Below are positions 2,933 to 29,247 of a stretch of DNA of 35,301 nt, piece by piece; within the stretch, counting starts at the first letter, position 1, and every line of letters starts with the position of its first letter. The position numbers were made by a program, and so were the translations under genes. Where the stretch lies: assembly GCA_011388275.1 (NCBI GenBank), contig DSAB01000036.1:1-35301 (forward strand), in the 5' to 3' direction. The notes beneath the pieces were generated by a model that saw only the letters and a program-made list of their open reading frames with translations, had not been told where the DNA came from and made no database searches. Origin of the DNA: a bacterium. GTDB lineage: Bacteria; Zhuqueibacterota; QNDG01; DSAB01.

Positions 2933-5900
2933 TTATCGAAAATCTCCTGTTAGCTGAAAAGCGGCCCAGGCTGAAGGATGCTGATTAACCTGGTCCATAA
3001 CCAGCCGCTGCGCCTTCTGCAGCGCGCGCGCCCGGCTTTCTCCAGCCCGCAGATACCGATAAAATCTTTTAACCAGCACCGCTGTGGCCAGATCATCCAC
3101 CTTCCATAAACTGGTGACAATGGAAGGAGTCCCCGCGAAAATGAACCCGCGCGCCAGACCGATGACATCATCCCCGCGTGTGATGTGGGCCAGTCCCGTC
3201 TCGCAGGCGCTCAGCATCACCAGGCCGCAGTCCAGATCCAATCCGAATATTTCATGGGCCTCAAGACGCCCGTCATCCTGCCCCTCCGGGGTCAGCAGCA
3301 GCGCGGAGAACAGGGGATTGGCCGGTTCATACTCGGCATGGCAGGCGAAATGGATGATTTCGCGATTTCGAACCGCCTCACGGATTTTTGACTCCGTCAC
3401 CTCACTACCATGATACGCCTCAACCTGTTCATAGGTTCTGACAATGGCCTGGACTTCCTTGTCCGCAAAAGGCAGATTGTATTCCGGGCCCAGTGCCGGA
3501 TTGCTGAAAGCCGCTACCGAGCCGGCGGCGATTCGGGTTCGTTCCTTTTCCCGACAGTATCCGAATACCGTAGCGCTGGGAGCCGAAGACAGAGAAAATC
3601 GCTGAATGAGGTATTCATCGCCTTTGATAGCCGCAAAGGGAAGATAGTGAAGAACTCCATGCGGAATCACAACCAGATGATTGATGTCCTTCAGGAAAGA
3701 ATCCACAGGTCGGATCAGCCGGTCATAGAGAGTCCGGGCCTCCCTGTCCACAGACAGATGGGCCTGAATAGACTCCCGGAAACGGCGTGTCTGCCGCTCG
3801 AGCACCGAATCCGGAACCAGCGTCTTCTGAAATTTGAGATCATCCCGGGTCAGACACCAGGTATAGAGCCCCTCGTCCAGATAATAGATCAGCATCGCCG
3901 CGGAATCGGGCAGCACAGACTGAATCTGTTCTACTGACCATGGATCCACCTGAACAAAAGAAGACAGTTCCGGATTCTCGGCCTGAAGACGGACCATAAA
4001 CGCCTCGTATTCCCGGCGCCTCTGTTCCAAAACCGTATGCCATACAGACAACTCATCTTCAGATCCGGTGCCGGACAAGAGAAGGCTGACACGGGTACGG
4101 GCCTCTTCGATCGACTGGCGAATACGACTCTCCTCTTCCAGCCATGCACCCTGCGCTCGAGAGAGCGCCAGGGCCTGATTGGCCAGCAGATCGATGAAAC
4201 TGCGGGACTTGGCCCGCTCCACAAAAGTCAGGGCCTCGCCGTGCCGGTTCAGACGGATCAGCAGCCGGATCATGTCGCTATACAGATCCATCTTGTCATC
4301 GAGAAAACCCTGCTGAAAGGCTTCCACTTTCAGCTCAGCCCTCATCGCTTCGACCAGATCGATGGCTCGGGACAGATCGTCCAGAGCCAGCTCGTGACGT
4401 CCCTGTCCGTCACGAATGCCGGCCCTGAGACGATGAATCCTCCAGGCAATATCCGGAATGCCCAGAGACAAAGCCTGATGCAATGCCGAATCGGCCAGAG
4501 CCAGGGCCAGAGCCGTCTTTCTCTGTGCTTGATACGCCCTGGAAAGACCAAACTGGCATTGAATTTCATTCCTCCTGTCACCCACCCGTCTGGAAAGCAT
4601 ACGCCCCTCCCTGAGAAGAGACACGGCCGACTCGGTTTCGCCTGTTTCCAGATACAGCATGCCGAGATTACGCCAGTCATAGGCCAGCCCTCTTTGATAT
4701 CCCAGTTCGGAATCGATGTCCGCCGCACGCCGAAATGATTCCAGGGCAAGGTCGAAAACTCTTTCCTGGATCGCTACCAGCCCCATGTTTTTCAGTATGG
4801 TGGCCTGATCCTCGAGACTCCCAATAGACTCGGCCATGTTCAAAGCCCGGGCCTGTGCTTCCCTGGCCCGGCGCCGGTCTCCCAGGCTCAGGTAGATCAA
4901 ACCCTGTGTACTGAATGCGGCGGCCAGCATACGGCGGTTTTGACGGGCCTCAAACTGCTCCATCGCCCGGGTTTGATATTCCATGGCCTGCCTGTACCGG
5001 CCTGATTTCCAGTGTATATTGGCCAGATGCTGCAGTGCCTGGGCGGCCTGGTCCGGCCGGTTCAGCGCCTGAAACAGGTTCAGCGAGGCCTGCTGCCGCT
5101 TTAAAGCCTCATCATACAGAGTCAACTGTTCGGCGGCCGATCCCAAAAGTTGAAGCGCCGCCGCCAATTCCATCCGTGCAGTCGAATCGTCTTCGGCCGA
5201 TTTGTGTAAAAACGTAACGGCCTGTTCGAGATGGACATAAGCCTCCTCCGCACGGTCTCCTTCCAGGGCGAAACGCCCGCGCCGGACACGGGCTTTAGCC
5301 AGGGACAGACTGTCGTCGAGACTTCGGTGCGCGATCATAAGAGAGTCCATGATCTGGTCAGCCCGATCGTAACGGCGGTTCAGAGCATAAAGAAACGCCA
5401 GCTCCTCCTGCTTATTCAAAGCCTCTCCAGAGTTTCCGCTGTCGCGCAAATGCCGGATCACTCTCGTCTTGATCCGTGCCGCCTCATCATACCGACGGCT
5501 GTTGATAAAAAACACAACCAGATTTTCCAGGCTTTCCAACACTTTATCAGATCGGCTCAGTCTCTCGGATTCGGTGAGGATCTCTTTCTGAACCGTCACG
5601 GCCTTTTCCCACAATCCTCCCCGGTAACTGGCCCGAATGATCAGCTGACGAATTCGGCCGGCCGTAAAAGAATCGTTCATGGCGCCGGCCATGACTTGTG
5701 CCTGTTCATAGTAACGGATTGCGTCCTCGTAATCCCGTCGCTGTTCATAGCCGAATCCGATCTGCAGAGTCTTGTTCAGGTTGTCGCTGGCGAATCGCAC
5801 ACGTTCCTCGGCATTCATGCCGGCATACCCCATCAGCCGATAACCTGCCCAATCCTTTATGCTTTTTGATGTGCGTCTCACCTCTTTCTGGGCCGAGGCC

Positions 5901-8900
5901 AGGGCTTCCGCAGCCGATAGCCGGATAAGATTTTGATAAAACAACCCGGCCATCCTGCCGCCGGCATCGATTGAAACATCCCAATCCACGAGCACCACTG
6001 CAGGAACTCCGCTGTATAAGAGTCCGTAATAAACCGGCAAAAAGGCCTCTTCCAACTGACCGCCGAAACGGAAAGGAGGAAGAAAGAACAGGCTCGCTTT
6101 CATAGGCAGTGGAAACAGGTCTTCTGCGGTCATCATCACATCCTTGTCAAAACCCGTGAACCCGAATCCTCCGGCCAGAGGTTCCCATTGGTTGACGACC
6201 AGTTCTCCGTACAGGTGAACCAGATCGGCTTTGCCAAGGCTCTCTGCCAGGATGTCTCTGTCCAACCGCTTCCCCTGAATCGTTTTCAGATTGATCGCAG
6301 CCGTGTTGCGCGATATTTGCCTGGCCAATTCCGTACTCCCTCCGGCCATGAGCATGTCGGTCTGATTGATACGGCGCCGTTCATGCGCCATGACAAAGGC
6401 CATAAGACTGGGCGACCAGACCACGGTATGCTGCTCAAGCAGAGGAGGCCTTTCATATGACAATGCGTGAATAGGCACCGGCCACAACGGACCGTCAGGA
6501 ACAATCAAAACCCAGTCTTTTCTCTTCAAGAGAGCCTGTACGGGCTGGATCAGCTCTTTTTCCCAGGTTCTCTGCAGGACTTTCAGGCCGCTGTCTGCCT
6601 TGAGCCCCTGAAAGAGCTCTTTTGTCATAAACATCAACCGATCCCGTGAAATCGGGAGTTCCAGGCATCGGATCGTATCCGTCTCCACGGCAAAAACGAG
6701 AGTGGCCGCTCGCAGAGACACGAAACGAATTGCCGTCCCGTTCCGGGGAATCCGCTCCTGAATCCGTCGTAAGTCCACAGGCAGGGCGCCGGCCATATAG
6801 GCCAGCACCTCGTCTTCCCGCTTCAGTTGGTCCCGCAAAGTCCGATACTCGACTTCATGAACCGCCAGCTGACTTTTCAGTGTCTCGGCGGCAGCGGTAC
6901 CGGAAACCGCTTGGGAAAGAGAAAATCGGGTCTTTCTCAGCATGGTTCGTAAATAACGGACATTGCCCCAGGCGATCTTGTGCCGCTCTTTGGACAGCTC
7001 GGGCGGCCGCCTGGCCAAAATATCCGCAATGAATTTTTGGTGCCCCTGCTCAATCGCGATCAGGGCTTCGTGAATACGGCCCTGTCTAACCATTTCTCCG
7101 GCCGCGTCCGCATAAATCTGTACTCTTTCAACACGGTCCGCCAGACGCTCCTCGCTTCCCTCTTCCTGAACCGGCAGAGCTTCCAGCAGATTTATCGCCT
7201 TTTCATACAGGCCCAGAGCCTTCTCAGCGGAATCCCCTTTCGCTTCTTGCAGCCGGGCCAGTCCGTAATAGACCCTCCATAAAAGTTCCTCCTCTCCTCG
7301 ACGTTCCAGAATCACACGGGCCTGATGATAATATCCCAGGGCGGAACCATAATCACCCAGGGCAGAGTGAACCCCTCCCAGGTTCGCAAAAAACAAGGCT
7401 CGCTGATCATCCAGGTTCAGCGAATCACTCAGGGCGCGTCCAGTCTCAAACCATTGCATGGCCTTCTCATAATCACGAAGCCGTTCAAAGGACACGAGAA
7501 CCTGATCATGCGCGCCTCCTTCGGAATACCGCTCACGTGCGGCCATTGCCCGTAATACACCCAGCTGATGCATCAAAGAAAGACATACCTGCGGATTTTC
7601 TCTTTTGGCCTGGACAAGGGCCCGTTGCAGGATTCTTTCGGCCTCTTCAAAATACTCCATGGAATGGCTCGTCATAAACGCCGCGGCCACATGTGCGAGA
7701 TTCAGTGCATTGATGAGATGTCCCCGCTGATCCTTCTGCTTGCGGCTTTCCAGAAGGGACCAGTGATAGTAATACCATGCCTGATGAAAATCACCCATCC
7801 GGTAATACAGCGTTCCAAGGCGGTTGAGACTGATCCGCCGGGCCATTGCGTCTTTCCTTGCGCGAAAAATGGCCAGCCGCTTCAGCTCGTATTCGAGGGC
7901 TTGATGAAATTGCTTCTCGCTTTCATGGCTGATACTCAACAGATTATAAACAAGAGCGGCTTCATCGGCCTGCGTAAACCCTTCGGATGAGGCTCCTCCA
8001 ATATCGGCCATTCGCCAGACTGGAATGGAAAACCCGAACAGCTCGATGCGAAGCGAACTTGCAGAAGACCGTTTTACGTCAACCGGTGTCTTGATCAGCG
8101 CCAGAGATTTTTCGGCGTACCGAATGGTCTCGCGGGGATCTCCCATCATGTGACAGTTGTAGGCCAGGTTCCGGTAGCCAAGCTGAGCCGCTTCCCGGCG
8201 GCCGTGTCTTTCGTCTTCGACCACCGTCTCCCGATAGATTTCGATGGCTGCTTCAAATTCACCGGCCAGATGATGGATAAAAGCAAGCCTCTGTTTATTT
8301 TGATAGACCTTGTCCTTACGGTCCAGAGAAGCATAGATGTCAATGGCACGGTCCAGAAAACGGGTGACTGTGGCATATTCAGTCACCACCAAACCACAAC
8401 GTCCCGCCCGCTCATAAAAAGTCGCCTCTTCCAATGGATGGCTGAACGTTGAGTCCATTTTCAGCCGAAGCAGATAATAATCAAAAGCCTTTTGATAACC
8501 ATACTCTCCGAGGTTGAAAAAATTATTGGCCAGATTCTGGGCCAAACGCGCCTCCATAAACGGGTCCAGGGTTTCATCGTTGAGTTCCAGGGCTGTGATC
8601 AGAGCAGCAATGGCTTTCTCGTAATACCCTTTCGTTGGGCTATCTCCACCCGGCAGCAGGCCCCAGGCCCAGCGAAGCGGCGCTGTCAACAGATTCAAGA
8701 AGCCTCGTACAAAGCCGTCTTTCTTCAGAGCATCCCTCTCTTCGAGCCGCTCAATCAATTCATAATTGTAACCCAGGGTTCGATAGGGATGAATCATGCG
8801 ATAATCTTCAGCCAGAGCAAGATACAGCCACTCATTGGATTTTTTCAGGATTCTACGGTCCGTTTCCCCCAGGAAGGAAAGAATCAACCCCCTGGCATAC

Positions 8901-11059
8901 AGCAAGGCCGGATTCCGTTTGTCTTCTTCAAGGGCGGCCTCATATTCTGCGGACAGTGTCTCGAGACGGCCGGCCCGATAAGCAGTCTCGATCAGACCGC
9001 GGTGCAGTTCAAGATCGTCGGAATCCATAGCCAGCGCCCTGCGATACCGGGCTTCGGCCAGTCCCAGATCACCGAGACCGGCCAGGCGGCGGGCGGATTC
9101 GGAAAGAATCTGAAAGAGCAACTCCCTTGCCTGTGCATAATAGACGCCTCCCTCCACCGTTGCATACCGATTCATCACTTCTTCCAGGATCAGGGAGGCT
9201 TCGAGTTCTTCTGTCCGCTCCCTGTGAATGCGCGCTCTGGCGATCCTCGATTCGGCCTGGGCCCAATCTTCGAAGCTTGTTTCTTCCAGAACCTGCAGCT
9301 CACGCAAAGCCGAATCCCACTGCCTGCGTTCTGCCAGGACTCCGGCAATGGACAATTGGGCCCTGGCCTGCAATAAAGGAAATTCAGGCAATTCCTGAAT
9401 GACCGCCCGGTATCCCGGGATCGGATCCGCCGCTTCCCTGACCTGAGACAGAAGCCTTTCACCGGCCCGCTCTCGCCACAAGGGAACATCACCGTATTCC
9501 CTTAAAACCGACAAATAAACCAGGCGGGCGGTTTCCTCCTGCTCCTCCTTGAGTACGTCCCCGATTTTCAGGCGCGCCGGGGCTTTCAGATTGGGAAGCC
9601 CTTCTCCCAATTGTACGGCTTCGCTGTAGGCCGAGAGAGCCTGACCTCTCCGTCCTTGTTCCGAATACAAATCGCCGAGAAGGATCCAGGCTTCCACCTG
9701 AACGGATCTCTCGTCCTGAAACTCTTCGATGACCGAGCGGCAGAGTTCGATACGCCGGCTTAGTGAATCCGGACCTGAAGCCTGTTTTAAGCGGGCCCGG
9801 GCCAGAAGCAGCCGATCACCGGGGTCGTTTAAAATGATTTGATCCAGGCATTCCTGCCGCTTGTCAGGACGGTTCAATACCGTATACAGATCGGCCATTT
9901 GAAGCAGAGCCCGGGCTTTCCATTCTTTTTCCCTCGGGAAAAAATCCAGTATCCTTTGATAGCCCAGAATGGACTCATTCAGTGCCTGCCGGGTAAAGGC
10001 CTGAACGGACCATTCCATAGCCATTTCAAATTGACCGGCTGCCGTGGAGACCCTGGGGAATCGTCCTTCAGGAAGCGAAGACCAGATGTCCAGCCCGCCT
10101 CCTCGTGTCGACGTGCAATAAAGTCGTCCATCGGCTCCCCAATGGGGTTGGAAAGAGGATTGTTCACCGGCCGTCAGCCGCAGGCTGCGGTCCCTTTCAT
10201 GCTCTGTTTCCCAGCCGATTGCATCCTCATAAAAAGGCAGGAACCGAAGGGATGCCTGGTCCATGGGCGTGATTCGTCCGTCTCCGTCCGTGTCTTCATC
10301 AAAGCGGACAAAAACCAGAGTGTTTCCATCGGGCGACCAGGCCGGTTCTCTGTCGATCCAGGGTCCGTGTGTCAAAAAGCGTATCCGGCTCTCTGAATCC
10401 GGTATAACCCCGGATAAAAACATAAGTGCGATCTCCCCTTTGGGATTTCGTTGATAGGACGTGAAAGCCAGCTTGCCCTGTATAGACCAGGCCGGATGAT
10501 GTCCTCCGGAGAGCGTGAGGGGGTCCATTTTTCCCGTTTCCCAATCCAGAAGCCAAATGTTTTTCTTTCCGTTCCGGTCCGACACAAATGCCACTTTTCT
10601 CCCGTCCGGAGAGACCGTTGGGTAACCATCCATCCCCAAATACTGAGTCAAAGGCTCCGGTTTCCCGGTAACCCGCCCTCCCCGCTTAAGATTCACGGGG
10701 ATCTTCCATAAATCCCCGCGGGCGTCTCTGCGTTTGGACACAAAAATCAAATGTTTGCCATCCGGATGCCAGCATGGCTCTGTATCTTCCGCCTGGTGTG
10801 TGGTGATCTGCACAGCAGTCCCCGTTGGCAGCGGTTTGATCCATATATCCGGATTTCCGGACCGTTCGGACACAAAGGCCAGCCACCGGCCGTCGGGAGA
10901 AACCGCCGGCCCGTAATCCGGGTCCGGATGTGTGGTCACCTGAATGGGTTCCCGTTCCGCGGGTTCCGATATATTGGTCCCGGCTGCGGTTCCAATCAGC
11001 CAGAAAAAGCAGAAAACAAAGCGGATTCGACTATTTTTTAATCCAGGTTCCGTCATCAC
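2933..11059 (-). CDS. Giant secreted PD40-TPR-CHAT-TPR-CHAT protein (2,708 residues)
   Basis: The start is GTG at 11059 or the adjacent ATG at 11056. A hydrophobic segment at residues 13-28 looks like a signal peptide. Residues about 38-345 carry TolB/PD40 propeller repeats (VSPDGRWLAFVSERSGNPDIW, VSPDGRKVAFVSDRNGKKNI), with a dockerin-like Ca2+ loop at 256-267. TPR-type helices run from about 350 to 1340. A CHAT-like domain follows (about 1340-1745, core from VPDGPLWPVPIHALSYE near 1516), in which the catalytic His position is Glu1619 and no cysteine is present in the corresponding SLFFLPPFRFGG strand. A second TPR array (about 1750-2280) leads to a second CHAT domain (RAKSRSFIDLLA near 2283; HFACHAEY with His2574; LSACETG with Cys2619). 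CHAT domains are caspase/separase-like cysteine proteases. The target is unknown. The start overlaps the YdbL-like gene by 29 bases, so it is probably translated by coupling within the operon. Confidence 0.9.
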   Translation of the reverse strand: MMTEPGLKNSRIRFVFCFFWLIGTAAGTNISEPAEREPIQVTTHPDPDYGPAVSPDGRWLAFVSERSGNPDIWIKPLPTGTAVQITTHQAEDTEPCWHPDGKHLIFVSKRRDARGDLWKIPVNLKRGGRVTGKPEPLTQYLGMDGYPTVSPDGRKVAFVSDRNGKKNIWLLDWETGKMDPLTLSGGHHPAWSIQGKLAFTSYQRNPKGEIALMFLSGVIPDSESRIRFLTHGPWIDREPAWSPDGNTLVFVRFDEDTDGDGRITPMDQASLRFLPFYEDAIGWETEHERDRSLRLTAGEQSSFQPHWGADGRLYCTSTRGGGLDIWSSLPEGRFPRVSTAAGQFEMAMEWSVQAFTRQALNESILGYQRILDFFPREKEWKARALLQMADLYTVLNRPDKRQECLDQIILNDPGDRLLLARARLKQASGPDSLSRRIELCRSVIEEFQDERSVQVEAWILLGDLYSEQGRRGQALSAYSEAVQLGEGLPNLKAPARLKIGDVLKEEQEETARLVYLSVLREYGDVPLWRERAGERLLSQVREAADPIPGYRAVIQELPEFPLLQARAQLSIAGVLAERRQWDSALRELQVLEETSFEDWAQAESRIARARIHRERTEELEASLILEEVMNRYATVEGGVYYAQARELLFQILSESARRLAGLGDLGLAEARYRRALAMDSDDLELHRGLIETAYRAGRLETLSAEYEAALEEDKRNPALLYARGLILSFLGETDRRILKKSNEWLYLALAEDYRMIHPYRTLGYNYELIERLEERDALKKDGFVRGFLNLLTAPLRWAWGLLPGGDSPTKGYYEKAIAALITALELNDETLDPFMEARLAQNLANNFFNLGEYGYQKAFDYYLLRLKMDSTFSHPLEEATFYERAGRCGLVVTEYATVTRFLDRAIDIYASLDRKDKVYQNKQRLAFIHHLAGEFEAAIEIYRETVVEDERHGRREAAQLGYRNLAYNCHMMGDPRETIRYAEKSLALIKTPVDVKRSSASSLRIELFGFSIPVWRMADIGGASSEGFTQADEAALVYNLLSISHESEKQFHQALEYELKRLAIFRARKDAMARRISLNRLGTLYYRMGDFHQAWYYYHWSLLESRKQKDQRGHLINALNLAHVAAAFMTSHSMEYFEEAERILQRALVQAKRENPQVCLSLMHQLGVLRAMAARERYSEGGAHDQVLVSFERLRDYEKAMQWFETGRALSDSLNLDDQRALFFANLGGVHSALGDYGSALGYYHQARVILERRGEEELLWRVYYGLARLQEAKGDSAEKALGLYEKAINLLEALPVQEEGSEERLADRVERVQIYADAAGEMVRQGRIHEALIAIEQGHQKFIADILARRPPELSKERHKIAWGNVRYLRTMLRKTRFSLSQAVSGTAAAETLKSQLAVHEVEYRTLRDQLKREDEVLAYMAGALPVDLRRIQERIPRNGTAIRFVSLRAATLVFAVETDTIRCLELPISRDRLMFMTKELFQGLKADSGLKVLQRTWEKELIQPVQALLKRKDWVLIVPDGPLWPVPIHALSYERPPLLEQHTVVWSPSLMAFVMAHERRRINQTDMLMAGGSTELARQISRNTAAINLKTIQGKRLDRDILAESLGKADLVHLYGELVVNQWEPLAGGFGFTGFDKDVMMTAEDLFPLPMKASLFFLPPFRFGGQLEEAFLPVYYGLLYSGVPAVVLVDWDVSIDAGGRMAGLFYQNLIRLSAAEALASAQKEVRRTSKSIKDWAGYRLMGYAGMNAEERVRFASDNLNKTLQIGFGYEQRRDYEDAIRYYEQAQVMAGAMNDSFTAGRIRQLIIRASYRGGLWEKAVTVQKEILTESERLSRSDKVLESLENLVVFFINSRRYDEAARIKTRVIRHLRDSGNSGEALNKQEELAFLYALNRRYDRADQIMDSLMIAHRSLDDSLSLAKARVRRGRFALEGDRAEEAYVHLEQAVTFLHKSAEDDSTARMELAAALQLLGSAAEQLTLYDEALKRQQASLNLFQALNRPDQAAQALQHLANIHWKSGRYRQAMEYQTRAMEQFEARQNRRMLAAAFSTQGLIYLSLGDRRRAREAQARALNMAESIGSLEDQATILKNMGLVAIQERVFDLALESFRRAADIDSELGYQRGLAYDWRNLGMLYLETGETESAVSLLREGRMLSRRVGDRRNEIQCQFGLSRAYQAQRKTALALALADSALHQALSLGIPDIAWRIHRLRAGIRDGQGRHELALDDLSRAIDLVEAMRAELKVEAFQQGFLDDKMDLYSDMIRLLIRLNRHGEALTFVERAKSRSFIDLLANQALALSRAQGAWLEEESRIRQSIEEARTRVSLLLSGTGSEDELSVWHTVLEQRRREYEAFMVRLQAENPELSSFVQVDPWSVEQIQSVLPDSAAMLIYYLDEGLYTWCLTRDDLKFQKTLVPDSVLERQTRRFRESIQAHLSVDREARTLYDRLIRPVDSFLKDINHLVVIPHGVLHYLPFAAIKGDEYLIQRFSLSSAPSATVFGYCREKERTRIAAGSVAAFSNPALGPEYNLPFADKEVQAIVRTYEQVEAYHGSEVTESKIREAVRNREIIHFACHAEYEPANPLFSALLLTPEGQDDGRLEAHEIFGLDLDCGLVMLSACETGLAHITRGDDVIGLARGFIFAGTPSIVTSLWKVDDLATAVLVKRFYRYLRAGESRARALQKAQRLVMDQVNQHPSAWAAFQLTGDFR
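10259..10294 (-). other. Dockerin/EF-hand-like calcium-binding loop in the giant protein
   Basis: Codons here encode DTDGDGRITPMD, which matches the canonical EF-hand/dockerin loop pattern D-x-D-x-D-G-x-I-x-x-x-D/E (Asp256, 258, 260, Gly261, Ile263, Asp267). It sits within the N-terminal propeller region, between PD40 repeats. A single loop of this kind usually binds structural calcium, which fits an extracytoplasmic location. That it binds calcium is an inference from the pattern. Confidence 0.65.
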
Positions 11060-11579
11060 GTTCTATCCATGTTCCCCTGGGAGAGTTCTCCTGATTCATT
11101 CGCGCGAAAATGTTTAGAATCTCCTCCTGCCGTGATTCCCTGAGCCGGTCGTTGAGTTCTACAACCCGGTTCATGATGAGTGTCCGATTTTCATTCTCCT
11201 CCTGCACGATCTCCCTGACCAGACGATCCATTTCCGGATTTTCCTCCAGAATTTTTGACGAACGAATCACCAGCATGCCATCCTTGCTTTCTCCCACCAA
11301 ACCCTTTCGCTTGAATTCATCCACATCATCCTTGTTGAACTTTTGGGTCTGCATGGCCTCGAGCACTCTCTCTTTCTCCGGTGAAAGCCTGACTTCACCT
11401 TCACGCCGGGATGAACGCATGGATGCTACCATCCAGGTGTCCTCTTCCAGCTGATGATACGTACCCAGAACCTCCCGTTCCAGAGCGGTCTTTTCACCCG
11501 TTACCCGAACCTCGGGTGCCTTGATGCTGCATTGTGTCACCAAAAACAGCAAGCCGACGCCGATCAAAAAGGATCGCAT
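11031..11579 (-). CDS. YdbL-like (DUF1318) lipoprotein
   Basis: This is a 182-residue protein with a lipoprotein signal (hydrophobic residues 3-15, then TQC with Cys17). The segment KAPEVRVTGEKTALEREVLG follows. The C-terminal half matches the YdbL/DUF1318 pattern: FKRKGLVGESKDGMLVI, a region rich in charged residues around ENENRTLIMNRVVELNDRL, and a terminal G-x-W-x-x-x-x-D-G-x-W-x-K-K. E. coli YdbL is a periplasmic partner of the AsmA-like protein YdbH in intermembrane lipid transport, with the small lipoprotein YnbE as third member. Here the YdbH-like gene lies 18 bases upstream, and this protein combines a lipid anchor with the YdbL domain. AAGGAGG sits at ideal spacing before the ATG. 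Confidence 0.82.
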   Translation of the reverse strand: MRSFLIGVGLLFLVTQCSIKAPEVRVTGEKTALEREVLGTYHQLEEDTWMVASMRSSRREGEVRLSPEKERVLEAMQTQKFNKDDVDEFKRKGLVGESKDGMLVIRSSKILEENPEMDRLVREIVQEENENRTLIMNRVVELNDRLRESRQEEILNIFARMNQENSPRGTWIERDDGTWIKK

Positions 11580-11597: not shown

Positions 11598-14500
11598 TTA
11601 TCTCATCATGGATTGAATGAAAAAATTCAACGGCAGCCTCCCGTATTCCAGTTTTCCGGGAATACGAACAGGCGAAAACCAGGGCTGTGTCAACAACAGG
11701 GACGGATACACATATCCATGCCGAAGCTCAAAAGAAAACAAACGGGGTTTCCATCCCGTATTGAGCAATTTTCTGGTCATCTGAATCGACCGGTCCGATC
11801 CCAGTGGATCCATCCCCTGAAGCAGCGTGCTGGCAAACCGGGGACCCATCTGAGTGATATGGAAGGTGCCGTCCAGTTCGATCCCCCGGCGGATATCGAA
11901 TCCGGTTCCTCGAAAGGCCATCGTGGCATTGATCTCGGTTTTTTCGCCGACATCCCGCCGAACACCGGCCAGAACCGCCGAATTGATACGGGAGGCCTGT
12001 GCCCTGATTTCGTAACGCGCTTCATTCGGAGGTTTTCCGGCCATATCCAGCCGCATGGAACCTCCCACATTCCCATCGAAAACATACACTTCGAACCATG
12101 GGATCTGAACTTCTCCACTCTCTATGATCAGATCCAGGTCCAGTTCGTCCATCCTGATTCGGTTCAATGTGATGTCACGAACCTGAAGTCTACCCAGCGC
12201 ATCGAATGCGTTTCGGTAAAGTGTTCGGTTTTGTTCATAATCCAGTCCGGGCCGAAAGCGGATTCCATCCCCTGCACACAGGGTCATGGAAGAGAGATTG
12301 GCTTTCAGATCCAAAGGAATTCGTCCCCAAAGCCGCCCGATTCGAAATCCTTCACCCCGGGACACAGAAAGTTCCGGTACATCCCAAAGACCCTGAAGGC
12401 GGATAATGTCTCCTTCCGTTCCGGCGCTTCCCAAATCCACTCCAAGATTCCAGCGTCCCTGAAGAAATCCATCGCGTATAATTTCGATCGAATCCTCGGA
12501 TGCAAATTCGTTTTCCAGCCGGACGTTCCATCTCGCCTTCTCCTGCATCACCATGTATCCGCTGATTCGGTTCTTCATAAACAGTGATGGCAGGTCCAGC
12601 AAACCGTTTGTGACAGTCAGATCCTTTCCATCCCACTGCCATTGAAAGGTCAGCCGGGTATGGGACAGAGGAGAAGAACGAAACGGACTTCGCAGAACAT
12701 TCAGCATGAGATCCGTGTGTCCCTGCATCTGGCCTGCATCCCCCTGCAGGGTCAGCTCTCCTTCCAGCCCCTCAGCCTTCAAAGAATCGGCCGTGTGCAT
12801 ACCCGTTTCGAAAAAACGCACGCCTCCGGCCAGCAAGAGATCGCCCTTCAGGTCCCCGTGAACACGGCCCCACAGAATTTCATGACCCTTAAAATCAAAC
12901 TGCCTGAAAGACCGTGCCATTGAATTCGGCAGACAGAACATCACACGGTCATTCGTGACAATCATTTCGGAAATCTCGATGCCGAAGGTTTCCGTGTTTC
13001 TATTCCAATAAGCCTGCCCGCGGGTAAAAAGACAGTCATTGATTTGAAATTCCAGACTGTCCAGCCGCCACCGGGAAGAATCGGGATCCAGATCAGCCAA
13101 AATTCCGCCTCGAAACCGAAGCGGGGCCAGTGTATCCTCAGGCATAATCAACGCAGACGTGCCCAGATTCCAATCCAGACGAGTTTTATCGAGTCCGCGG
13201 GTGTTCATATCCAGAGCGAAAGATACCGGACCCGACACCGGTATCTCCCCGGGCAGATTTTCAAGCCGAAGCGTGTCGATTTTCAGGTTCCAGTCTGAAT
13301 GAACCCGCTTCCATGAACTTTCGTTCGGAATCTTCCATTTTCCCTGTACCAACATCGGACCGCCAAAAGGAGACAGGACGGCCAGGCGGGTCTCTCCCCC
13401 GGCCGGCAGCCATTCCGAATCCAGCCGGGAAAGTATATCCCAGTCAAAAGCCTTCAGCACCACGCCGGTATCCGCCACGGTCTGTCTGGTGCTGTCGATT
13501 CGAACCGCCAGGCGCGCCTGCCCGCCGAACAACTTCCCTTGTTTCAAGCGGCCTCGAAGCCGGGCGTTGAGGCTTCCGCCGTGAAACTCTATGGGCAGCG
13601 AATCGGCGGCCGCGAACAGAGATTCCCATCTCGAACGGACATCAAAACCCAGGCCCGCGGTATCCAGATCGACGCGTCCCTCCAGGAGCCGCACCCGTCC
13701 CTGAAAGCGGTAAGGGTCCAATACGGCCGTCATTGCTGCGGGAAACAGAGAAACGGCCGATTCTCTCATTCTTTCGAGCCTCACCTCATCGCCGTCCAAC
13801 GTGAGGGTGCCCAGCAGCCGTTCCGGCAGGGGTTCCAATTCACCCCTGATCCGAAGCAGGTGCTGTCCGCCAAGAGAAAGACGGGTCTCCACATCGGCTC
13901 TTCCCGTCATACCCCGCCCTTTTGCGTTGACGATCCAGCGGAGATTCGACGCGGTCGCCGTGTCGCCGATCGTGAAATAATGAATGAAGGACCATCGGCC
14001 TCCGGATTTCCAAACTAATTCCGTGTTCAGATCAAGGGGGAGAAAATGGGACTCGTTTTTTCCTTCGGTACGAACAGATCCCTGACGGGTATACAGCCGG
14101 ATCCGTCCGCGCAGCCGTTCCGAATGTGAATCCGGATCCCTGGGAATGTGCAAATCGCGAACATCCAGATTGAATCCGTCTAAAAACAGAGACGCGGCAT
14201 TTTCGTCCGCGTCGAGAGGCAGAGAAAGACTGAAATCTTCCAGTTTGAGTCTAAAAAGGGACAGGGCCAAAGGAAGAATCAGGGGATCCGACGACTTATG
14301 GTCCCGGGTTTCACCGGCCGGCCGCGTACCTTTTTCCCCAGAGGGCGAAGCGTGCCGGACGGTCAGATTCACGAAAGGGCCTTCGATGCGGATTCCCGTA
14401 ATCTCGATACGGCGCCTTAACAGCGGAAGGATCCGAAATTGAACACCGAGCCGGCGGAGGCTGAAGAAAACCGGTACCGGCGCCGCTTCCGAGGGAAATC

Positions 14501-14744
14501 CGATCTGTATCCCTTCGATATACACGGACCCAGGCAAACGAATGTTAACACTTTCTATTCGGACCGGCCTCCCCAGCTCTCTTGTCAGTATTCTGGAGGC
14601 CAGGTCCCCTGCGGGCCTGGCCGGATAGAGCCAAATCACGATCAACAAGGCTGAAATCAGCCCCATAATCAGGGAAAAAACCCACAACAGCAGCCTTGTC
14701 AGGCGGCGTTTTCTTTTCAGCGTTTTTGCTTGTTTCCTGTCCAT
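11598..14744 (-). CDS. AsmA-like / YdbH-type inner-membrane-anchored protein
   Basis: This is a 1,048-residue protein with a basic cytoplasmic N-terminus (KTLKRKRRLTR) and one membrane segment at about residues 18-42. A long, beta-rich periplasmic region begins with an AsmA-type N-terminal pattern (ILTRELGRPVRIESVNIRLPG, then RRIEITGIRIEGPFVNL). The C-terminal part (about 930-1040) shows the repeating strands expected for YdbH/TamB/YhdP relatives, which form hydrophobic grooves that bridge the two membranes and carry phospholipids. The YdbL-like lipoprotein directly downstream is the strongest evidence for YdbH rather than another AsmA member. The start follows the MscS stop by 26 bases and has only a weak AGG upstream. 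Confidence 0.82.
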   Translation of the reverse strand: MDRKQAKTLKRKRRLTRLLLWVFSLIMGLISALLIVIWLYPARPAGDLASRILTRELGRPVRIESVNIRLPGSVYIEGIQIGFPSEAAPVPVFFSLRRLGVQFRILPLLRRRIEITGIRIEGPFVNLTVRHASPSGEKGTRPAGETRDHKSSDPLILPLALSLFRLKLEDFSLSLPLDADENAASLFLDGFNLDVRDLHIPRDPDSHSERLRGRIRLYTRQGSVRTEGKNESHFLPLDLNTELVWKSGGRWSFIHYFTIGDTATASNLRWIVNAKGRGMTGRADVETRLSLGGQHLLRIRGELEPLPERLLGTLTLDGDEVRLERMRESAVSLFPAAMTAVLDPYRFQGRVRLLEGRVDLDTAGLGFDVRSRWESLFAAADSLPIEFHGGSLNARLRGRLKQGKLFGGQARLAVRIDSTRQTVADTGVVLKAFDWDILSRLDSEWLPAGGETRLAVLSPFGGPMLVQGKWKIPNESSWKRVHSDWNLKIDTLRLENLPGEIPVSGPVSFALDMNTRGLDKTRLDWNLGTSALIMPEDTLAPLRFRGGILADLDPDSSRWRLDSLEFQINDCLFTRGQAYWNRNTETFGIEISEMIVTNDRVMFCLPNSMARSFRQFDFKGHEILWGRVHGDLKGDLLLAGGVRFFETGMHTADSLKAEGLEGELTLQGDAGQMQGHTDLMLNVLRSPFRSSPLSHTRLTFQWQWDGKDLTVTNGLLDLPSLFMKNRISGYMVMQEKARWNVRLENEFASEDSIEIIRDGFLQGRWNLGVDLGSAGTEGDIIRLQGLWDVPELSVSRGEGFRIGRLWGRIPLDLKANLSSMTLCAGDGIRFRPGLDYEQNRTLYRNAFDALGRLQVRDITLNRIRMDELDLDLIIESGEVQIPWFEVYVFDGNVGGSMRLDMAGKPPNEARYEIRAQASRINSAVLAGVRRDVGEKTEINATMAFRGTGFDIRRGIELDGTFHITQMGPRFASTLLQGMDPLGSDRSIQMTRKLLNTGWKPRLFSFELRHGYVYPSLLLTQPWFSPVRIPGKLEYGRLPLNFFIQSMMR

Positions 14745-14770: not shown

Positions 14771-16075
14771 TCAGCGACCGGTGATCCGATAGGTTGTATA
14801 AGCGAAATCCACATCCGCGGTTTCTTTGAAAGCCTTGATCACTTTCCCGCTGATTATGTTTTCCGTGGACCGCCTTTTCCTGGCATCCGTCAAATAACGC
14901 AGAGTCAGCTTGACCCCGCTGTCCTGAATGCTTGTGTATACAATGGGCGTGAATTTCCGGTAATAGATGAGATATTCACGGGACATTCGGTCGATCTGGC
15001 TCTGAACCTTTTCCTGAACTTCCCGGCTAGCCTCTTCTCCGCAGACAAGCAGAATCTCCCGCGCTTTTTCCCAGGAGCTTTCAAAAGTCACGATAACGGA
15101 CATTTCATTCCAGATATATTCAAAACCCATGGTGTAATTATACAGGGCCCTTCTGAAAATCTGCCCGTGGGGCAGATGAACCACACGTCCTGTTGACTGA
15201 TCACCATCCACCCAGTTGCCGATCTCCAGAAGCGTGGTCTGAAACAGGCGCACATCGATGACATCACCCCGCACATCGCCCAGCTCAATACGGTCGCCCG
15301 TTCGATAGGGCCGGCGGATCATGATGTAAAGCCAGCCGGCCATATTGAGCAGTACTTCATGCAGGGCCAGAGCGACACCGGCACCCATGACCGAAAGAAC
15401 GGTGGCCCACTGAGTGGTGCTGCCGGCCCAGATGAAGATCAGGATGATCAGATAGATTCCGGTAGCCGTGTAGGTGACCCGCTTACGGTACTGATGCCGT
15501 TTCTGAATATCCACCTGAAGCGAATTGATAAATCGGCGCAGGAAAAACAGAATCAAATAGACAATGCCCAGAGCCACCGCGGATTCAAAGATATTCTGAA
15601 GAATTGGATTGTTAAAATAGGCGAACCAGTTGGCAATATCCCAGATCCTCATCAGAATGAAACCATAAATTAAAAAGACGACAATCTGTGTCCACTTCCA
15701 ATATCGCTGACGAATTTTCGATTCCGTTTGAAGGGAATCATAGAGCCGCTTCAGGATGCGCAGAACAATAGTCAAAATCAGCAATAAAACCAGTGAACCG
15801 AAAAGCCGCATTATGACAGGTCCCGGATCATCAAAATATTGAAAGGCCAGGGGTAAAGCCCATATAAAAAGAAATATCAAAAACGTCATGAAAATCAGGG
15901 AATGAAAAGCCATGCGGCAGTAGCGGCCGCGCAATTCTTCATGTGCCATGGACTTGATAATTCGGCGGGCCAGGAAATACAGGAAGATCAGAAACCCCGA
16001 TGATCCGGCAGACCAAAGCATTTTCTGCCAGATTCCAGGACGGGAAATCCATGCCCAAAAGTCTGTCAGTGTCAT
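14771..16075 (-). CDS. MscS-family mechanosensitive channel
   Basis: This is a 434-residue inner-membrane protein. It has about six predicted membrane helices, ending in the pore-lining helix (TVLSVMGAGVALALHEVLLNMAG, about residues 228-250). The MscS beta domain follows (IMIRRPYRTGDRIELGDVRG, FQTTLLEIGNW, VVHLPHGQIF). The cytoplasmic alpha/beta part ends in a region similar to the MscS C-terminal cage. It should open under membrane tension to release solutes on hypo-osmotic shock, although larger MscS relatives can have other gating or signalling roles. AGGAGG lies four to five bases before the ATG, and the start overlaps the previous stop as ATGA (16072-16075). Confidence 0.9.
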   Translation of the reverse strand: MTLTDFWAWISRPGIWQKMLWSAGSSGFLIFLYFLARRIIKSMAHEELRGRYCRMAFHSLIFMTFLIFLFIWALPLAFQYFDDPGPVIMRLFGSLVLLLILTIVLRILKRLYDSLQTESKIRQRYWKWTQIVVFLIYGFILMRIWDIANWFAYFNNPILQNIFESAVALGIVYLILFFLRRFINSLQVDIQKRHQYRKRVTYTATGIYLIILIFIWAGSTTQWATVLSVMGAGVALALHEVLLNMAGWLYIMIRRPYRTGDRIELGDVRGDVIDVRLFQTTLLEIGNWVDGDQSTGRVVHLPHGQIFRRALYNYTMGFEYIWNEMSVIVTFESSWEKAREILLVCGEEASREVQEKVQSQIDRMSREYLIYYRKFTPIVYTSIQDSGVKLTLRYLTDARKRRSTENIISGKVIKAFKETADVDFAYTTYRITGR

Positions 16076-17484
16076 GTTTCCTCCTCTTCCAGCAGAATCC
16101 GTTCGTTTTCCATATTCAGATTTTGCCGGCCGGCCAGCTTCTGTTTCAACTCATCGCTGTCCTCCGCGAACAGGGGACTGATCTCGATGCGCGATACATG
16201 GGAAGGAACATCGATCCCGGCCGATTTGAGCCGGTGCCGGAACAACTGCGTCAGATCCCGCCGGGCCGTCTCAACAGAATCTTCTCCCTCCCGGTTTTTA
16301 ACGGGACTGAACTCCTCCTCTCTGCGAACCTCGAGAATGACAGGCCGTTTCGCAAAAGGAAGGGCCTCGAAGACAAAAGTCTCGAATTTGTAGCCATTGG
16401 GCTGATCCGGTTCGTTGAGCCGGCCGCTCTCATCAAGAAAGGAGATTTTTTTGTGAGCCGCATGAACAGGCAGCTGAAAACCCTCTTCAACCCGCTTTCT
16501 GGCAAAGGTGACATCGATCAGATGGATGGCGACATTGCCGGCGTCATACTTTCGACTGCCATCGGCATTCCTGGCCGTCATATCCGATTCTTTCATGTCG
16601 CTGTATTCCACAACCGTAAGTTGTCCGTTTACCCGGCCGAACACGCCCAGTTTTTCGAAATCGTGGCGTTTTCTCAGCATTTTTGAAGACATCTCAGACC
16701 GGTTCAGCACGTGATAGCCGATAAACACAGGATCAATGATGCGAATCAGCACGTTGTCCACCTGAAAATAGGAAATCACCTCTATGTTTTGATCCGCCAT
16801 TTGCTCCAGAGCGCCGCTCTGATAAAGGGTCTGAAGGGATCCTCCATGCCCGTTCGGGCTGGTGAATATATGATCTTTGGCATTCATGATAAGTTTTCCC
16901 GATTCATCCAGGGCGGGAACCATGCGCTGCCTGAAAAAGGTGACCGGCGGCTCTAAACCGAAATGTTTATGCGCTTCGAAGAAACGGCATGTCTCTTCAT
17001 GGTTGGTCTCGCTGGTCATGACAAACCAGGGAATGGAAACACCATAGCGGCGCGAAGCGGCGCGTATCCGTTCCGCCTGCCACTGAAAAAGAGTACGGTC
17101 CGTAACCGGTCCGATCCGAAAACACCCCTTGGGTCCGTCAAAGCCGAGACGGGTTCCCTGACCGCCGGCAACGACAAAAGCAGCGGTCTTTCCGCTGCGT
17201 ATGGCGGTTTCTCCGGCTTCCCTTGCTTCGCGGGCCCGGGTCTCCTCCTCGAGTGTCTTCGGAATGCCGATCACCCGTGGGGGCTCCAGGTCTCCGGGCA
17301 TTTGCTGTTCATCCACGACACGCAGAAGCGACTGAAAGTGCCTGACCTCATCCCAGTTGATGTTCCGGCATTGATCCAGCAGGCGCCGCCGGGATGCGGT
17401 GTTCAGCTCGGCCCACCAACGAAACACATGGCCCTGTCCATGTGCCTCGAATTCTTTTTTCAATAACCGGTATGTCTCATCCAT
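16072..17484 (-). CDS. UDPGP-family UTP:hexose-1-phosphate uridylyltransferase (UAP1-like)
   Basis: This is a 470-residue protein of the eukaryote-like UDP-sugar pyrophosphorylase family. It shows the nucleotide-binding loop FVVAGGQGTRLGFDGPKGCF (about residues 102-122), MTSETNHEET, a TSPNGHGGSL substrate loop, YFQVDNVLIRIIDP, and a sugar-binding region around PNGYKFETFVFEALPF. It transfers UMP from UTP to a hexose- or N-acetylhexosamine-1-phosphate to make UDP-sugars for cell envelope or glycan synthesis. The exact sugar cannot be fixed from the sequence, but the overall length and motifs are nearest to UDP-GlcNAc pyrophosphorylases. The ATG at 17484 lies inside the end of the TrmH gene (8-base overlap) with an AAAAGG close upstream. 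Confidence 0.87.
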   Translation of the reverse strand: MDETYRLLKKEFEAHGQGHVFRWWAELNTASRRRLLDQCRNINWDEVRHFQSLLRVVDEQQMPGDLEPPRVIGIPKTLEEETRAREAREAGETAIRSGKTAAFVVAGGQGTRLGFDGPKGCFRIGPVTDRTLFQWQAERIRAASRRYGVSIPWFVMTSETNHEETCRFFEAHKHFGLEPPVTFFRQRMVPALDESGKLIMNAKDHIFTSPNGHGGSLQTLYQSGALEQMADQNIEVISYFQVDNVLIRIIDPVFIGYHVLNRSEMSSKMLRKRHDFEKLGVFGRVNGQLTVVEYSDMKESDMTARNADGSRKYDAGNVAIHLIDVTFARKRVEEGFQLPVHAAHKKISFLDESGRLNEPDQPNGYKFETFVFEALPFAKRPVILEVRREEEFSPVKNREGEDSVETARRDLTQLFRHRLKSAGIDVPSHVSRIEISPLFAEDSDELKQKLAGRQNLNMENERILLEEEET

Positions 17485-26097: not shown

Positions 26098-29000
26098 TTA
26101 AAATTCAGCACCCAGCGTAAAGTAATGAATGGGCTTGTCGCTGGATTCCAGATTGGTACCCCAGGCGATATCATATTTAAGCAGAAAAAATCCCAAATTC
26201 AAGCGAGCCCCGATTCCGTATCCTGCGCGCAGATCATGCAGAACCGGAAGACCGAATTTATTGGAGCTGAAAGGTTTCCACTTGGAATCGTCATTCCAGG
26301 CGGATCCGACATCCATGAACAGGGCACCCCGAATATTCTGAAACCCGACAGGCAGAGGCCAGCCGAAAACCAGATAGTGGATCAATGGAAACCGTATTTC
26401 AAGATTGGTCAATACGAAACGGGTTCCGATCATTTGATAGTACAAGGATCCCCGCAGAGGGGTTTCGAAACTCGAGAAATAAAAAATGTCCCCGGATCCC
26501 CAGTATTCATCCGGTATTTGATGATAGCGGTAGTTGAACCAGCCCCGCATCCCTCCCAGTAAAAACCTCTGGGGATTTTCTCCACCGGACACTCCTCCAC
26601 AGAGACGGGTTACAAAGATAAAGTCCTTATGAATCCTCCAGTAATTTCTCCAGTCTCCCTTGAAGGTCCAGAAATCCAGCCCGTAATCTTCGCTGATTGA
26701 AGGGCTGTACGTGAATGAAAAACTGGAGCGGGTCCCGTTGACCGGTCCGGTACTTCCCCAGAGCACGGTATCGGTCTTATAACCGATATTGGCCAGAATC
26801 AGGTGTCGCTTATACAAATTGCCCAGATCACTCAATTCGGTCACTCCGTAATAGTAGGCCAGATAGGGATCGATTACTCCATAATCCCTTTCGATGACCA
26901 CTCCGGTGAGGCCGAAGTCCACACGCCGAAAGCGGCTGAACGGGCGGGAGAGATACAGAGTCAGCCCGTAATTGCGATCCCGGTAATATCCCCAGTAATA
27001 ACCCGTCCCGTCGTAAAAATACGTAAAGTACAAGTAAGAATAATGAAACAACGACACCCCGAGATCCGTCCGTTTGGGTAAATAATAATACGCCAGCTGG
27101 AAATTGGAATTTTTCAGGTTGTAGAAAATATCGGTATACAAATTGATCTGATGGTTCCCGAGAATATCGGAAAAGGCGATCATGGTCGACCCCTGAAGAC
27201 CGAAAAACTGACTGTAACCCGCTCCGCCGGCAACAACATCCGGAGAAAACCGAATTTTATACGTGTTCGTTTTATATTCGCCATCTTCCTTATAGACCAA
27301 ACTGTCCAGAAACGTTCTCTTTTTCGAATCTTCCAATGTGATTTGTCCCTGCCGAAAGTCGTCGTCAAAAACAAACCGGCTGTAATCTTTCGATGTTGTT
27401 TCTTCACCGGGCGATACTTCCTGGACGGCCGACTCTTTTCCCTCTTTTTCTGTTTTCTTCATAAAGGACGTTTTCTCAAGAACCACGGACCCGGATTCTA
27501 TTTTTATTGGATGGTTGAGCAGAAAAAGATCATAACCTCCATAATAATAGGTCGAAAAAGCGATCCGGTCTTTCTCCCGAGCCCATGAGATCTGGGACAC
27601 ACCGGAAATCAGATTGGTAATCGGATAAATGCTGCCGGTCTCCAGATCGCAGATATGGATATTGTCGATTCCATTCCGATCAGAGATAAATGCGATCTTG
27701 TTTCCGTCCGGCGAATACGCCGGGGATGCCTCCCTGTATACATCATGTGTGTGCCGCCGGATCCGGCCCGTTTGAATATCTATCGTATAGAGATCCTTCT
27801 GTTGATAAGAATGATCCGACATTCGGAACGTTTCATCCAAATCACCCGTATGCCGGTCTCGATCTGATATAAAGGCGATTTGATCACCCGTCGGTGACCA
27901 GACAGGATCCCAGTCACCAAAAATGTCATTAGTGAGCGGCTCAAGCTTTTCCTCATTGAGATGAAAAAGATAGAGATCGGACTGCCCCCCCTGTGTGCCC
28001 ATAAAAACAATGGTCTTCCCGTCCGGAGACCAGTCCGGAGAAAAGATGCCGTCCAGAGCAAGTTTATACGTATGCAGCACTTTCCCGTTCTCCGCGTCCA
28101 GGATGAAAAGCGCATCGCCGGACCCGGCTTTGGCCGCCATGACAATCCTGTCTCCCTGCGGTGCCCACCCGATACCCGGACGGGTCCAGTGAACTTCCTC
28201 GAACAATTCGCTTCTCTGTCCTTTAACCAGACGTTTCCTGATTTTCTTTTCAATCGTATCCATCAAATACAGATCAATATAATCGGAACGGTTGGAAAGA
28301 AACACCATTTTGTCCCCCTGGGGAGAAAGATAGGGAGAATTGTTCAGCCTGGCCCGCTCCTTCTTATGGTCTGTCAGCCGGATGGCGATGTCTCCGGGCT
28401 CATCCCGGCCCTGAATATCAGGCCAGTAACGGGTCCTTAGATACTTATGCCATTTTTGGGTCAGTTTCTCTTCATCCATGCCCAGTGTCTTTTTAATCCC
28501 CTGCTCGAAGTTCTTATAAAGTTTCAGATTGAAAAACAAATCTCCGATTTTTTCCTGTCCATACTGATCCGCAATGAAATTCAAGACGGATTGCCCTCCC
28601 TTGTAAGCCAGGTAGCCATACAACTGAGATATCGGCGGCAAATATCCGCTGATCGTCGCATCCCTCATGAACATATCGCTCTCTGAATCCCATCCCACAC
28701 TCTGATACTCGGCAATCCCCTCAACCAGCCATAACGGCAGCTGGAAACGGGCCAGGCCCGAGATCATGGATCCCATTCGGCCGCCGTACATCATTTGATT
28801 CATCACCGCGTGGGTCAGCTCATGATGCAGCAGCCTTCGGTAATCATCATGGCTTCCCCGAAAAGCCACCACAACCCGGTTCTTGAAGATCTCGGTAAAA
28901 CCCTGCACGCCTTCCTCGAGAAGAACATAAAGCACGTTGGTTTGTTCAAAATCATTATGACTGTTATAGACCAAAATCGGAATCCTGTTTTCAATGGAAT

Positions 29001-29247
29001 ATTTCAAACCCTTTTCCAGGGCCACATAACTGGACTCGGCCGCATCGGCCGTGAACTCGGCAAGCTCTCTTCCTTCACCATAATAATAAACATCGAAATA
29101 TCTCGACTGGAGAAAATTCCACTGAAAATCCTTATATTGAATTTTGTTTTTTCCAAATTGCTGAGCCGCCGAAACGGCAGAGAGAAAACAGGTTGCAATC
29201 AAAAGGAGGGTCCCTGGATACTGTTTTCTGAACCGATCGCAAAACAT
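26098..29247 (-). CDS. Metallopeptidase / TolB-propeller / outer-membrane barrel fusion protein
   Basis: This is a 1,049-residue protein. A signal peptide (about 1-28) is followed by a peptidase-MA-like domain with the zinc motif HELTH (His142, Glu143, His146) and a likely third ligand in WLVEGIAEY (Glu176). PD40/TolB propeller repeats then run from about 290 to 600 (LSPQGDKMVFLSNR, WSPDGKTIVFMG, YSPDGNKIAFISDR). A C-terminal third rich in Tyr-containing amphipathic strands resembles an Omp85/surface-antigen barrel (ALFMDVGSAWND, GYGIGARLNLGFFLLKYDIAWG) and ends in the outer-membrane signature phenylalanine. It is probably embedded in the outer membrane with peptidase and propeller in the periplasm. 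GGAG lies eight bases before the ATG. Whether the peptidase is active or acts as an assembly factor is unknown. Confidence 0.85.
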   Translation of the reverse strand: MFCDRFRKQYPGTLLLIATCFLSAVSAAQQFGKNKIQYKDFQWNFLQSRYFDVYYYGEGRELAEFTADAAESSYVALEKGLKYSIENRIPILVYNSHNDFEQTNVLYVLLEEGVQGFTEIFKNRVVVAFRGSHDDYRRLLHHELTHAVMNQMMYGGRMGSMISGLARFQLPLWLVEGIAEYQSVGWDSESDMFMRDATISGYLPPISQLYGYLAYKGGQSVLNFIADQYGQEKIGDLFFNLKLYKNFEQGIKKTLGMDEEKLTQKWHKYLRTRYWPDIQGRDEPGDIAIRLTDHKKERARLNNSPYLSPQGDKMVFLSNRSDYIDLYLMDTIEKKIRKRLVKGQRSELFEEVHWTRPGIGWAPQGDRIVMAAKAGSGDALFILDAENGKVLHTYKLALDGIFSPDWSPDGKTIVFMGTQGGQSDLYLFHLNEEKLEPLTNDIFGDWDPVWSPTGDQIAFISDRDRHTGDLDETFRMSDHSYQQKDLYTIDIQTGRIRRHTHDVYREASPAYSPDGNKIAFISDRNGIDNIHICDLETGSIYPITNLISGVSQISWAREKDRIAFSTYYYGGYDLFLLNHPIKIESGSVVLEKTSFMKKTEKEGKESAVQEVSPGEETTSKDYSRFVFDDDFRQGQITLEDSKKRTFLDSLVYKEDGEYKTNTYKIRFSPDVVAGGAGYSQFFGLQGSTMIAFSDILGNHQINLYTDIFYNLKNSNFQLAYYYLPKRTDLGVSLFHYSYLYFTYFYDGTGYYWGYYRDRNYGLTLYLSRPFSRFRRVDFGLTGVVIERDYGVIDPYLAYYYGVTELSDLGNLYKRHLILANIGYKTDTVLWGSTGPVNGTRSSFSFTYSPSISEDYGLDFWTFKGDWRNYWRIHKDFIFVTRLCGGVSGGENPQRFLLGGMRGWFNYRYHQIPDEYWGSGDIFYFSSFETPLRGSLYYQMIGTRFVLTNLEIRFPLIHYLVFGWPLPVGFQNIRGALFMDVGSAWNDDSKWKPFSSNKFGLPVLHDLRAGYGIGARLNLGFFLLKYDIAWGTNLESSDKPIHYFTLGAEF

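Follow-up and report, generated by a model that had tools for sequence, protein, structure and literature searches.

Judged by sequence comparison, giant proteins that carry two CHAT modules in one chain, the first catalytically dead throughout and the second mostly with an intact His/Cys dyad that several lineages have lost, occur through most of the phylum of the source genome (mostly labelled candidate division KSB1) and, beyond it, in a few lineages. The representative analyzed here is encoded in a stretch of 35,301 nucleotides (contig DSAB01000036.1), referred to as the window, in which the open reading frame at 2933-11059 proved to be real and located on the minus strand. From the N- to the C-terminus, the giant comprises a hydrophobic segment, a PD40/TolB-like propeller, TPRs, CHAT module 1, a second TPR array and CHAT module 2. 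The original prediction, a tandem CHAT protein with a dead first copy, had overlooked the propeller (residues 40-330), the likely export signal and the conserved neighboring genes, including that for a DUF1318 protein. The features referred to below, in window coordinates, are:

2933-11059, minus strand: giant ORF, 2,708 aa, start codon GTG or ATG
10976-11029, minus strand: hydrophobic N-terminal segment, residues ~11-28, likely Sec signal (hydropathy rule)
10070-10942, minus strand: PD40/TolB-like beta-propeller, residues ~40-330 (PD40 match, 150 bits)
7715-8992, minus strand: residues 690-1115, best-conserved stretch of the N-terminal TPR solenoid
5780-7072, minus strand: module 1, CHAT module without dyad, including linker, residues 1330-1760
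6203-6205, minus strand: Glu1619, in the catalytic His position of module 1
6071-6073, minus strand: Phe1663, in the catalytic Cys position of module 1
4313-5779, minus strand: second TPR array separating the modules, residues 1761-2249
2936-4312, minus strand: module 2, CHAT module retaining the dyad, residues 2250-2708
3338-3340, minus strand: His2574, predicted catalytic His of module 2
3203-3205, minus strand: Cys2619, predicted catalytic Cys of module 2
11031-11579, minus strand: predicted DUF1318 lipoprotein of the YdbL type, 182 aa, its ORF overlapping the 5' end of the giant ORF
11598-14744, minus strand: AsmA/DUF748 protein, 1,048 aa, a frequent but not universal neighbor

That the two CHAT modules are related, the first lacking the dyad, is borne out by their scores and by direct comparison. 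Both lie above the curated cut-off of Pfam CHAT (PF12770, 24 bits), module 2 with 231.9 bits and E 1e-68 (window 2942-3745) and module 1 with 88.1 bits and E 7e-25 (window 5828-6559); beyond these two matches, the PF12770 search revealed no further CHAT genes in the source genome. Profile-profile comparison of the family alignments of residues 1330-1760 and 2250-2708 yields a probability of 100 and E 7.2e-58 over 421 columns, helical linker included. In this alignment Glu1619 pairs with His2574, and Phe1663 pairs with Cys2619 in the alignment of the homolog survey. The residue numbers given earlier are correct: HLYGEL begins at 1615, placing Glu1619, and HFACHAEY at 2570, placing His2574. The Cys strand of module 1, SLFFLPPFRFGG from 1656, contains no cysteine, and that of module 2, LSACETG from 2616, supplies Cys2619. 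A substitute His/Cys pair was looked for elsewhere in module 1 and is absent; its sole cysteine (1465) is unconserved, and no Cys column reaches 30%. The linker of module 1 holds an ERHK motif, whose His1360 (window 6980-6982, minus strand) is kept in 71% of module 1 sequences and falls outside the caspase-like core.

Searching the PDB by sequence alone, the module 1 profile retrieved no CHAT match, so that comparison at the level of the fold was needed. The AlphaFold2 model of module 1, built from the family alignment, has a pLDDT of 92.6 and a pTM of 0.92; that of module 2 is less confident (85.9 and 0.83). The best Foldseek matches of module 1 are Csx29/TPR-CHAT (8eex, E 3.9e-14) and human separase (9hn5, E 2.4e-12), and module 2 has the same structural neighbors (8eey, E 2.3e-17). 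Similarity to the solved targets is moderate by TM-score (0.5-0.6 by query length), with large rmsd values; this is support for the fold but falls short of a detailed superposition. The modules were compared with each other by profile alignment and through their common structural neighbors. The structure prediction thus assigns module 1, with high confidence, the caspase-like fold of Csx29 and separase that had been anticipated, and what makes module 1 a member of the CHAT family is its descent and fold rather than any catalytic activity. Foldseek also matches module 1 to eukaryotic proteins of the ciliary central apparatus (7n6g_1N, 7sqc_R0 and 9ijj_A), suggesting that separase/CHAT-like folds may be present in these large proteins.

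Module 1 is too divergent to serve as a query on its own: searched against genome contigs it retrieved zero relatives, whereas the TPR block 690-1115 retrieved them. Scanning named genomes with this conserved block identified 38 loci, mostly titled candidate division KSB1, with a few titled Calditrichota, LCP-89, Delongbacteria or Actinomycetota, and a strong match to the block was obtained in 57 of 99 genomes related to the source genome. Across all usable modules, the dead/active pair is conserved: the catalytic Cys of module 1 is found in 0/57 sequences (none within 3 columns) and the His in 3/57, confirming the loss of the dyad, whereas module 2 keeps both residues in 39/45. Six copies of module 2 lack the Cys (G078, G049, G038, G064, G066 and G047). 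Two giants stop after module 1 (G012 and G017), the module 2 core is unrecognizable in another (G029), and in G027 neither module is recognized, an exception among complete giants, nearly all of which have a recognizable module 1. The giants with a dyad-less module 2 (L073, L077, L078, L122, L123 and L125) constitute a natural test set for the role of the dead module.

In at least these six giants with a dyad-less module 2 and the two ending after module 1, catalysis is dispensable. That module 1 might regulate module 2, as originally suggested, does not follow from conservation of the pair alone. Since module 1 is retained where module 2 is dead or missing, regulating module 2 cannot be its only role, and some role independent of an active partner has to be assumed. 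A strong rival to any regulatory scheme is therefore that module 1, joined by module 2 in some lineages, only holds the solenoid together or binds a partner, with proteolysis by module 2 being accessory and free of control by module 1. The persistence of double-dead giants and of giants without module 2, all with the DUF1318 gene still beside them, speaks for such a pure scaffold, as does the lower conservation of module 1 compared to the propeller and the N-terminal TPRs. The full dyad in most copies of module 2 and the higher mean column identity of this module (46% vs 30% for module 1) weigh against it, and we regard it as possible, though doubtful.

Module 1 is under purifying selection, while being less constrained than the neighboring parts: dN/dS is 0.16-0.34 for pairs with estimable dS. 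It is the fastest evolving part of the giant; its tree distances exceed those of module 2 in 105 of 105 genome pairs, by a factor of ~2.8 at the median. Such rapid evolution could be taken as the mark of a functionless relic of duplication in decay, but this reading was rejected as contradicted by the dN/dS values; the high-confidence fold and the fact that nearly every complete giant, with G027 as the exception, has a recognizable module 1 likewise leave it with hardly any probability.

How the pair arose is a separate question. Trees built with either 40 or 19 further CHAT proteins from the phylum recover module 1 as one group and module 2 as another (support 100 and 98 in the 19-protein tree), and jointly the two groups stand apart from the other sampled CHAT proteins of the phylum with support of 96/85. 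Most likely, both modules derive from an ancestral CHAT module by duplication within the gene, at a time before the phylum split into its families. The internal duplication originally proposed is thus favored by the joint separation of the modules, but the AU test leaves alternatives, as it does not reject placing either module with the closest CHAT proteins outside the pair (p 0.152). This is the result that favors an independent acquisition of two CHAT modules and their subsequent joining, an origin that would fit either mechanism; as the best tree sets the modules together and their homology spans the linker, we consider it rather improbable.

The giant is likely exported to the cell envelope. 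A signal-peptide-like hydrophobic segment is present at the N-terminus in all 31 assessable giants according to the hydropathy rule (applied without SignalP), and in a few of these 31 a possible lipobox cysteine is seen, by hydropathy only. The propeller scores 125.8 bits against TIGR02800 (propeller_TolB), under the equivalog cut-off of 343, and is accordingly classified by sequence match as TolB-like, TolB itself being excluded.

The giant gene and the gene of the predicted DUF1318 lipoprotein appear linked in a nearly fixed manner. Among 82 genomes of the phylum, both are present in 54, both absent in 21 and mismatched in 7, counts that were taken among related genomes and are uncorrected for phylogeny; the Fisher test for co-occurrence (p 1e-12) is inflated by shared ancestry and unusable as a probability. 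DUF1318 lies directly upstream of the giant on the same strand in 44 genomes and likewise precedes it at L109, L112 and L117; in ten genomes it is on a separate contig, the linkage being broken or not assessable. The three giant-only mismatches (G008, G060 and G065) are from contigs that begin within the giant gene. Among the four DUF1318-only genomes (G016, G073, G013 and G025), the first two have a propeller ORF after DUF1318 at the contig end, the pattern expected from a cut giant. In the other two (L127 and L128), where the giant is absent, the DUF1318 gene lies near a YdbH-like protein (PF11739).

In the window, as in most but not all families, the AsmA-like gene is located upstream of DUF1318; its product matches PF05170, with DUF748 below cut-off. 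Constant adjacency of an AsmA-like gene was dropped as a candidate rule, there being no AsmA-like ORF upstream at L109, L112, L058, L063 and L068. The arrangement resembles the ydbH-ynbE-ydbL locus of E. coli (AsmA-like lipid transport) in its YdbL-type DUF1318 protein and AsmA-like neighbor, but the E. coli locus is without a giant and the AsmA neighbor in the window is not matched by the YdbH model PF11739; the DUF1318 protein showed no Pfam match for a YnbE-like N-terminus. Farther out on the minus strand, MscS-like and UDPGP genes upstream (14771-17484) and inositol-monophosphatase and UPF0047 genes downstream (1702-2917) surround the giant, in an order kept in several genomes of the same order. 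The window also encodes, at 26098-29247 (minus strand), a 1,049-aa protein in which a Peptidase_MA_2 metallopeptidase domain occurs together with PD40 propeller repeats and an Omp85 barrel; in G035, a homolog with 47% identity adjoins the giant gene (L043:195-3422).

Four known systems invite comparison. DdvA is a transmembrane anti-sigma factor with a CHAT domain, and we know of no tandem modules or propeller in it. This membrane-associated bacterial protein (8rot, 8rw5) is among the fold matches of both modules, but its anti-sigma function sets it apart. Separase (peptidase C50) shares the succession of a helical-repeat solenoid and a caspase-like protease, and Foldseek matches both modules to the human, worm and yeast proteins; it is, however, eukaryotic and intracellular, whereas the dead module of the giant is a full CHAT unit with a TPR array between it and the active one, and the match to Pfam C50 (Peptidase_C50) is 18.9 bits, under the cut-off of 27.8. 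Csx29 of the type III-E CRISPR system (Craspase; 8eex, 8eey) resembles the giant in the fold of both modules, in the TPR solenoid before the CHAT unit and in a His/Cys dyad as in module 2. It differs in its size of ~750 aa, its work with a CRISPR effector and its single CHAT unit; the giant has in addition a dead CHAT unit, the intervening TPR array, the TolB-like propeller and a likely export signal. In Csx29, one CHAT unit holds a pseudo-caspase half (CHAT1) and an active caspase half (CHAT2), and the active site becomes ordered when a TPR segment moves (PMC10028731). A pseudo-enzyme beside an active one is thus not new in itself.

Given that Csx29 and separase are the nearest solved folds, the giant might serve defense or cell death as a TPR-CHAT effector protease, of the type of Csx29 or of those that activate gasdermin. 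The NCBIfam Csx29 model does match module 2, but weakly (53.1 bits vs a cut-off of 300), so that module 2 is not Csx29 by this model, and the Pfam scan found no Cas7-11/gRAMP gene among the 15 window ORFs it covered. With an export-type hydrophobic N-terminus, a conserved neighborhood of non-defense character and a PADLOC search that returned no specific system (its matches being a generic TPR model and BovA at 19 bits), such a function is very unlikely.

The evidence best supports an envelope protein in which the propeller and TPRs would bind a partner and module 2 would act as a protease of the separase/Csx29 type. It could work in the following manner: The exported chain of propeller, TPR solenoid, dead CHAT module, second TPR solenoid and CHAT cysteine protease may have arisen by duplication of the CHAT module, the first copy being already without an active site when the families diverged and then kept as a folded, non-catalytic element. 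The propeller and the conserved N-terminal TPRs would bind an envelope partner, probably tied to the neighboring DUF1318 lipoprotein. By analogy to Csx29, the dead module may serve as a structural or allosteric joint that links the two TPR arrays and passes movement from the first to the second; movement of the second array could then order the site of His2574 and Cys2619, enabling module 2 to cleave its substrate. Taken as a whole, this explanation of an envelope giant with a duplicated CHAT module, a dead copy as joint and a gated protease is tentative, plausible but short of probable. Its more specific form, a periplasmic separase-like protease that is gated by its dead duplicate, senses a lipid pathway of the DUF1318/AsmA type, cleaves an envelope substrate and has become a catalytically empty scaffold in some lineages, is unlikely as it stands.

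TPR-CHAT and separase-like proteins, as well as pairs of pseudo- and active caspases inside one CHAT unit, are already known. What appears to be new, as far as sequences tell, is a whole CHAT unit that is duplicated and dead, in a likely exported giant tied to a DUF1318 lipoprotein. In the open-access literature, neither a published account of such a protein nor a description of a separase-like envelope protease linked to a YdbL-type lipoprotein was found, and nothing relevant on CHAT with a pseudo-protease or with AsmA/DUF1318. The ~60 giants form a large natural series of dead/active caspase-like pairs in one chain, and those members in which the active half is dead or lost make the contribution of the pseudoprotease testable by comparison. 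On the reading proposed here, the bacterial envelope would contain a separase-like protease whose gene is linked to that of a YdbL-type lipoprotein.
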